Position numbers and translations under genes: made by a program. From a virus: a DNA stretch of 22,491 nt. Location: IMG/VR virus record IMGVR_UViG_3300030451_001553, positions 283-22,773 of that record; one strand, written 5' to 3'. The notes under the pieces were generated by a model, which saw only the letters and a list, made by a program, of their open reading frames with translations, searched no databases and had not been told where the DNA came from. How positions within the stretch are numbered: the stretch's first letter is position 1; each line of letters opens with the position of its first letter. Shown in pieces: positions 1,311 to 1,809 of this stretch.

Positions 1311-1372
1311 ACCACGTCCGTTCATCCTTTAATTAGGACGCATGAAACCACAGCATGGAACGGGGTTGTGGT
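1311..1372 (+). promoter_or_regulatory. Structured RNA element downstream of psbA
   Basis: Two inverted repeats lie close together: CGTCC (1315-1319) with GGACG (1336-1340), and ACCACA (1347-1352) with TGTGGT (1367-1372). The first stem covers AGGA, the only Shine-Dalgarno-like sequence for the ATG at 1342. A competing helix is possible between CCGTTC (1318-1323) and GAACGG (1358-1363); forming it would open the first stem and free AGGA. This is the layout of a two-state leader, but switching is inference from base pairing only. It could also be a processing site or 3' end of the hli-psbA transcript. No U-run follows, so it is not a classical terminator. Confidence 0.4.
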
Positions 1373-1437
1373 ACTGGAGATTTACAATGTCTGTAAAACT
1401 AAAGTATCGTGGTGTAACTTACACAAAAAACATTTAA
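1342..1437 (+). CDS. 31-residue mini-ORF (possible leader peptide)
   Basis: The ORF begins MKPQHGTGLWYWRFTM and continues SVKLKYRGVTYTKNI. AGGA ends 4 nt before the ATG, closer than ideal. A second in-frame ATG at 1387 would give the 16-residue MSVKLKYRGVTYTKNI, whose KYRGVTY core resembles the start of small cyanobacterial DUF4278-type proteins (a YRGxxY motif); that link is tentative. The Trp-Tyr-Trp cluster at residues 10-12 sits within a predicted RNA hairpin, so a leader-peptide role is conceivable. It lies alone between the psbA region and the secreted-protein gene, 9 nt before the latter. Function unknown; the coding status of the first 15 codons is less sure than that of the second half. 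Confidence 0.4.
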   Translation: MKPQHGTGLWYWRFTMSVKLKYRGVTYTKNI

Positions 1438-1446
1438 TTTATTAAC

Positions 1447-1809
1447 ATGAAAACAATTGCACTTGCAGCACTGACTGTAACATCAGCCCTGGCTACACCT
1501 GCAATGGCTGGCGTCTATATAAACGCTGAGTCAAACGCATCTTATACTGGGAACGATTATACTTCTAGAACTACTGATCTACATATTGGATATGAAGGCG
1601 ATGTAGGACAACTTGGATACTACATCCAAGGTGGTCCAGCTTTCTCTGACGTAGATGCAGGAGATGCTGATACTAATCTTTCAGGCAAAGGCGGACTATC
1701 TATTGCTGCTACTGAGAAATTAGATATCTATGGTGAATTATCTTTCGCTCAACAGGAAGATGCTGACAATACATACGGCACTAAGATAGGCGCTAAGTAT
1801 AAGTTTTAA
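1447..1809 (+). CDS. Small secreted outer-membrane beta-barrel-like protein
   Basis: A 120-residue protein with a clear Sec signal peptide: Lys2, a hydrophobic core (IALAALTVTSALA) and an AxA site, PAMA/G, predicting cleavage after residue 21. The mature ~99 residues alternate polar and hydrophobic positions in short strands (VYINAESNASYTG, TDLHIGYEG, LGYYIQGGPAF, GGLSIAA, LDIYGELSF, TKIGAKYKF) joined by Gly/Asp/Asn turns. It ends in Phe, as outer-membrane barrels recognised by the BamA machinery often do. It therefore probably goes to the host outer membrane as a small barrel. I recall similar unassigned proteins in other cyanophages. Possible roles (inference): blocking a receptor, changing permeability, or helping lysis or release. 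It is not an obvious virion protein. No Shine-Dalgarno is visible, and a terminator-like hairpin follows. Confidence 0.8.
   Translation: MKTIALAALTVTSALATPAMAGVYINAESNASYTGNDYTSRTTDLHIGYEGDVGQLGYYIQGGPAFSDVDAGDADTNLSGKGGLSIAATEKLDIYGELSFAQQEDADNTYGTKIGAKYKF

Follow-up and report, generated by a model that had tools for sequence, protein, structure and literature searches.

A predicted six-stranded outer-membrane protein of cyanophages, its duplicated host relative and the RNA elements upstream of its gene

The locus and its protein family

The window, that is, the whole stretch of DNA analysed here, comprises 22,491 nucleotides and makes up most of a 22.8-kb IMG/VR record (IMGVR_UViG_3300030451_001553) of a T7-like cyanophage that carries psbA and T7-like morphogenesis genes. 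Its gene order (psbA, the gene under study, hereafter the barrel gene, a gene for 170-190 amino acids, and the capsid gene) is most similar to that of phage NATL1A-7. An earlier note on this DNA had placed the barrel gene between the photosynthesis and capsid genes. Both psbA and the major capsid gene indeed flank it, but a riboswitch and a micro-ORF that the note had missed intervene (Table 1), and psbA (228-1258) is frameshifted. Near position 1111, it lacks 25 nt that are present in relatives (e.g., L006 and L030), and D1 therefore ends at position 1118 with the C-terminal part in another frame; this gap may reflect real decay or an assembly error.

Table 1. Features of the barrel gene and of the RNA elements upstream of it and of its T4-like relatives (window positions, unless a locus is named)
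Feature	Residues	Position	Strand	Basis
Glutamine-II (type 2 glutamine) riboswitch aptamer		1316-1372	+	Rfam RF01704
Shine-Dalgarno region (ACTGGAG) of the micro-ORF, straight after the aptamer		1373-1386	+	sequence
16-aa downstream peptide MSVKLKYRGVTYTKNI, DUF4278-like motif KYRG[VI]xY		1387-1437	+	conserved in 32/32 loci
Outer-membrane beta-barrel-type protein gene (PF24653 / phrog_417 / T4-GC 241)		1447-1809	+	120 aa, exact ORF
Signal peptide, cleavage between AMA and G	1-21	1447-1509	+	sequence; near-invariant site in alignment
Mature protein, 99 residues		1510-1806	+	AlphaFold2 model, alternation test, invariant Phe
Strand 1	22-34	1510-1548	+	AlphaFold2
Strand 2	37-53	1555-1605	+	AlphaFold2
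Strand 3	56-69	1612-1653	+	AlphaFold2
Strand 4	75-87	1669-1707	+	AlphaFold2
Strand 5	92-102	1720-1752	+	AlphaFold2
Strand 6	109-118	1771-1800	+	AlphaFold2
Last codon, Phe		1804-1806	+	invariant in alignment
Two-hairpin RNA leader		L076:5862-5910		
Two-hairpin RNA leader		L078:5873-5920		
Two-hairpin RNA leader		L079:7882-7929		
Two-hairpin RNA leader		L080:4854-4901		
Two-hairpin RNA leader		L081:21568-21614		

Several other features are present in the neighbourhood. A GC-rich hairpin (CCCCTGTAG-CGGAA-CTACGGGGG; 1842-1866) with a short T run lies 3' of the barrel gene; it looks terminator-like by eye and was not flagged by the terminator scan. The 176-aa gene 5' of the capsid gene (1893-2423) has a weak match to phrog_24062 only, and NATL1A-7 possesses a gene of similar size at the corresponding place, followed by a tRNA-Gly. 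In the nearest viral contig, a group I intron is found downstream of the barrel gene (L001:6730-6956; 94.7 bits).

The earlier note had taken the ORF to be a genuine gene with relatives in other cyanophages, and both statements are borne out. The Pfam scan assigns its product to PF24653, a known family already named in Pfam as 'Cyanophage outer membrane protein like beta barrel domain' (E 4e-43; 146.9 bits, cut-off 27), and the match covers positions 2-122 of the 122 in the model, hence its full length. The protein also matches phrog_417, which carries no assigned function (E 1e-41). A tblastn search with the protein retrieved 471 phage records whose titles name Synechococcus, Prochlorococcus, cyanophage, marine or uncultured phages; the carriers of PF24653 genes are T4-like (Kyanoviridae) and T7-like (Autographiviridae) cyanophages, and the family is absent from S-PM2, P-SSP7 and Syn5. 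Members of this family appear under various other labels (T4-GC 241, 'gp222', 'DUF680', PhCOG173-'DUF680'). Since Pfam returned no DUF680 match in the window protein or in the relatives scanned, the legacy 'DUF680' label is unsupported. For the OMP_b-brl family (PF13505), no Pfam match is listed for the window protein, while related members reach E 1e-5, the best of them with 25.8 bits and hence under the cut-off of 28.7.

Predicted fold and host relatives

The signal peptide (MKTIALAALTVTSALATPAMA, followed by G) consists of a basic n-region, a hydrophobic core and an A-x-A site whose residues (A19, A21, G22) are invariant or nearly so among aligned relatives, and such a peptide is present in essentially all PF24653 members. 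Twenty-six diverse relatives share with the window protein the invariant positions A21 and G22, Y24, G48, G63, G83, G115 and the C-terminal Phe. An AlphaFold2 model built from a 60-sequence alignment contains six strands of membrane-spanning length (10-17 residues), with a pLDDT of about 90 in the mature part, and the in/out hydrophobic alternation on these six strands is high: the summed value is 2.50 versus 0.99 +/- 0.30, and none of 20,000 column shuffles was as high. The signal peptide, the mature protein of about 99 residues ending in Phe, and the alternating short strands of the earlier note have thus all been recovered. The top fold matches in the PDB (Foldseek) are mostly outer-membrane proteins (OmpA, Ail, OmpX, OmpW, NspA, OprF); they are weak (E >= 0.015, TM about 0.5), as expected where the query has fewer strands, and a sequence search of solved structures gave no significant relative. 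Taken together, the structure prediction supports the view that the barrel gene encodes a secreted outer-membrane protein of the beta-barrel type.

The nearest structural comparison is with the eight-stranded small outer-membrane proteins (OmpX, Ail, the transmembrane domain of OmpA; PF13505), which resemble the phage protein in strand length, alternation and C-terminal Phe, and to which the weak PF13505 scores of relatives and the fold matches also point. These proteins possess eight strands in about 150 residues, whereas the phage protein has six in 99. To our knowledge, six strands are two fewer than in the smallest known lone barrel. The earlier note had proposed a minimal outer-membrane barrel and had suggested a structure prediction and a comparison with barrels of the OmpW/OmpX/Opa type. 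The outer-membrane type is upheld by the Pfam name, by the PF13505 scores of relatives and by the fold matches, but the model does not show the eight-stranded architecture of OmpX and OmpA, and a minimal lone barrel is unsupported because six strands are too few and because the homologue in hosts contains the unit twice in tandem.

This homologue emerged from a search of 400 host-family genomes with the PF24653 profile, which gave matches above the cut-off in 32 of them. The strongest matches in host assemblies appear to be on phage contigs, and four matches (in G070, G390, G363 and G279) were discarded as host homologues: that of G070 lies on the 16,917-bp contig of L001, and the others resemble phage contigs by size or neighbours. 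Genuine host relatives fall into two groups. In the first, a 256-aa outer-membrane protein contains two PF24653 units in tandem; it was found in Synechococcus RCC307 (E 2e-13, two stretches in Pfam) and in at least three further genomes of the Cyanobiaceae; both its halves match the phage profile over about 75-100 residues, nearly gap-free. The second consists of a His-rich, roughly 330-aa protein with a weak PF24653 match in its C-terminal third. Apart from the 256-aa proteins, host matches are weak, and a shared barrel composition could partly contribute to them. His-rich OMP-like proteins of this size (L191:369-1370 and L200-L217) stand beside znu-type genes in picocyanobacteria and are likely zinc-related outer-membrane proteins. 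Two further PF24653 members were seen in host assemblies: a distant one (L226:7552-7911) on a contig that also bears a tyrosine-recombinase-like ORF and could belong to a mobile element or prophage, and a decayed copy with two in-frame stops (L227; G118:C1:132523-132861) on a 2.4-Mb host chromosome contig.

The host protein of the znu locus thus consists of two fused units with zinc-uptake neighbours, whereas the phage protein is a single unit, and no fused version was found in the viral contigs and phages searched. There are, in addition, T4-like contigs with two PF24653 phage genes side by side. The tandem units of the host protein and these adjacent phage genes suggest, from sequence, that the phage protein acts in pairs.

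RNA elements upstream of the gene

The riboswitch upstream of the barrel gene matches RF01704 over its full length (1-60 of 60; 54.9 bits, gathering threshold 33; E 5e-11). An alignment of 27 homologous aptamers contains 54 two-sided compensatory changes, and its covariation score of 0.374 compares with 0.115 in shuffled and at most 0.066 in slid alignments. In total, 96.9% of the cells are paired; the pseudoknot is invariant and keeps all its pairs, while P1 and P2 covary. An alternative pairing of P2 with the RGV codons of the peptide, derived from the fold of the window, was dropped, as it does not persist in sequences with an altered P2. Type 2 glutamine riboswitches are reported to switch expression on in response to glutamine and to be associated with DUF4278 peptides (PMC6316151; see also PMC2864571, and PMC6698751 for structure); published accounts of glutamine binding and gene control by RF01704 concern host examples alone (PMC6316151, PMC6698751). 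The phage element shares with these the full-length match, the pseudoknot pairs and the adjacent DUF4278-like peptide, but in the host case inspected no PF24653 gene follows, while in the window the outer-membrane protein gene is the next cistron. In the searchable part of the open literature, which our search covered incompletely, no link between the barrel gene and a riboswitch was found.

The order riboswitch, YRG[VI] peptide, stop, 3-16 nt and ATG of the barrel gene is conserved in 32 of 32 loci (the spacing is 9 nt in the window). The peptide varies between 13 and 35 aa among them. A 35-aa phage version gives a sub-threshold match to DUF4278 (PF14105; E 0.0014, 19.3 bits, cut-off 25.3), and the 16-aa window peptide is too short to scan. 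In all 32 loci the micro-ORF is preceded by an anti-SD match of 3-5 nt, mostly 4, whereas other genes of the window mostly have a shorter match or none, and the barrel gene has no SD of its own. The riboswitch is located 5' of the barrel gene in 20 of 20 close relatives tested and in further contigs; six cultured Prochlorococcus phages (P-SSP6, P-SSP10, 9515-10a, NATL2A-133, NATL1A-7, P-SCSP-R27W) each possess exactly one Glutamine-II riboswitch in 47 kb, always before the barrel gene. Within PF24653, this riboswitch and micropeptide arrangement is confined to one T7-like set (Tangaroavirus, Cheungvirus and window-like contigs). The cassette also occurs with no barrel gene behind it in P-SSP7, S-RIP1, S-RIP2, L052, L060 and L104; the link between riboswitch and gene is therefore clade-specific, and the cassette did not arise for the barrel gene. 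In P-SSP7 (L271:2523-2576), the Glutamine-II riboswitch lies 5' of the capsid gene.

Translation of the peptide may be coupled to that of the barrel gene. The missing SD is not by itself evidence for this, because most window genes lack one, and it was dropped as proof after this control on the other window genes. Given this and the occurrence of the cassette alone in other phages, the sequence arrangement makes coupling likely rather than proven.

T4-like members of the family carry a different leader, a 48-nt two-hairpin element that ends 17-27 nt 5' of the ATG (Table 1). Its first hairpin has two-sided changes at six of six pairs, and the covariation score is 0.647 versus 0.231 in shuffled and at most 0.26 in slid alignments. 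A model of the element gave one strong match per genome in S-SM1, Bellamy, P-SSM4, Syn19 and S-TIM4, each directly 5' of the gene, and none in S-PM2, which is also without the barrel gene; no Rfam family matched it at E <= 1. R1-like hits in three host genomes scored weakly, at about 22 bits, and were put down to chance. We regard this leader as a candidate new, hitherto undescribed cis-regulatory RNA.

Nutrient contexts and possible function

Relatives of the barrel gene are found near nutrient-uptake genes. Genes for ZnuA, an ABC-3 permease, an ABC ATPase, a Fur-type regulator and CobW are near both kinds of host protein (Pfam, one genome), and the two-unit gene of RCC307 has, by eye, a similar znu-type neighbourhood. 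Among T4-like isolates with two PF24653 copies (Bellamy, Syn19, S-SM1), the second copy lies directly 5' of pstS in all three, with phoA also beside it in S-SM1; this paralogue, too, is predicted to have six strands and gives barrel fold matches. A Pho-box-like repeat precedes the paralogue in S-SM1, Syn19 and L098 only, and no Pho box above chance was found 5' of the window-type barrel gene. The 'DUF680' gene has been linked to phosphate stress (PMC6224464). By sequence comparison, ORF224 of S-TIM4 is a homologue of the window protein; mutations in it, of which many were disruptive, rose to about 100% in populations passaged on WH8102 in replete medium, none did so upon passage in MIT9515 or MED4, and its product was not found in particles (PMC6224464). 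A distant homologue, S-SZBM1_90, was detected in purified particles with two peptides (PMC9146016). An accessory uptake role fits best with the pstS context and with the S-TIM4 and particle data, and the pstS/phoA and znu contexts speak for solute entry, one of the functions raised in the earlier note.

Other roles have to be weighed against this one. Host-surface remodelling was the main proposal of the earlier note: in superinfection exclusion or receptor masking, the protein would occupy or obstruct a receptor of the outer membrane and thereby keep related phages from adsorbing. Such a role is known for some small envelope proteins of phages (Cor, Llp and porin-replacement cases), the gene occurs in two unrelated cyanophage families with common hosts, and in the alignment of relatives the loops are more variable than the strands. 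This reading leaves the pstS/phoA context of the paralogue and the znu context of the host homologue unexplained, however, and nutrient-type RNA control would be unexpected for an exclusion factor; we consider it unlikely. A contribution to lysis, by weakening the outer membrane late in infection, would agree with the late-region position beside the capsid genes and with the S-RIP1 copy, which overlaps a gene whose product has a phage lysozyme domain (PF18013). We reject it as the main reading and judge it improbable, because several lytic relatives (S-PM2, P-SSP7, Syn5) do without the family and because loss is tolerated in S-TIM4, whose populations with disrupted copies still propagate and take over. 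Hardly more probable, and in our estimate slightly less so, is a virion component instead of a host-envelope protein: the peptides of S-SZBM1_90 and the adjoining capsid gene of the window speak for it, but outer-membrane proteins often co-purify with lysate membranes, the S-TIM4 homologue was not found in particles, and a signal peptide is nearly universal in the family.

A further possibility concerns the RNA and not the protein. The riboswitch might serve the micropeptide only, with the barrel gene transcribed and translated independently and its glutamine link merely positional. The cassette without the barrel gene in several phages, and in one host genome, is in keeping with this, as is the scarcity of SD sequences in the window, which means that the barrel gene could presumably start independently. 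Yet the 3-16 nt spacing has been kept in all 32 loci across about 56-100% protein identity, and a scan found promoter-like sites around the barrel gene in no excess over chance. We hold this explanation to be rather doubtful, albeit a serious competitor.

We favour the reading of the barrel protein as a dimerising half-barrel uptake porin under glutamine-riboswitch control with peptide coupling, and assign to this explanation as a whole a probability of about 0.5. A secreted, six-stranded half-barrel of the PF24653 family would be exported during infection by the host Sec and Bam systems and placed in the outer membrane of the cell. Two copies, or one copy and a paralogue, would join there as a closed barrel of about 12 strands, corresponding to the single fused protein of some host Synechococcus. 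This barrel would alter the passage of small solutes, most likely as an uptake porin. In the clade of the window phage, a glutamine-sensing riboswitch and the 16-aa peptide would come first, and the barrel gene would follow as second cistron. By analogy with the published work on hosts, sufficient host glutamine would cause the riboswitch to free the ribosome site of the peptide, and ribosomes ending the peptide would then start on the barrel gene a few bases downstream. If glutamine opens the switch in this way, the protein would be made when nitrogen is not limiting, and another nutrient such as phosphorus would likely be the limiting one.

New in this analysis are the proposed half-barrel nature of the protein with its duplicated host relative, the nutrient-uptake contexts, and the RNA elements upstream of the gene in both phage families. 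Tentatively, and with somewhat less than even confidence, we suggest that cyanophages use half-barrels to build outer-membrane uptake pores, each of which an RNA or DNA element would connect to its own nutrient signal. In T7-like Prochlorococcus phages this signal would be glutamine, read by the type 2 riboswitch; for the paralogue it would be phosphate, by way of the Pho box along with pstS/phoA; and in T4-like phages the two-hairpin leader would respond to some ligand or repressor. The two-unit host homologue of the zinc locus, the phage paralogue of the phosphate operon and the glutamine riboswitch of the Prochlorococcus phage set make these ideas testable. If they are true, marine phages would sense how well the cell is supplied with nitrogen and adapt the permeability of its outer membrane, and this would bear on how viruses change the flow of nutrients in the most abundant photosynthesisers.
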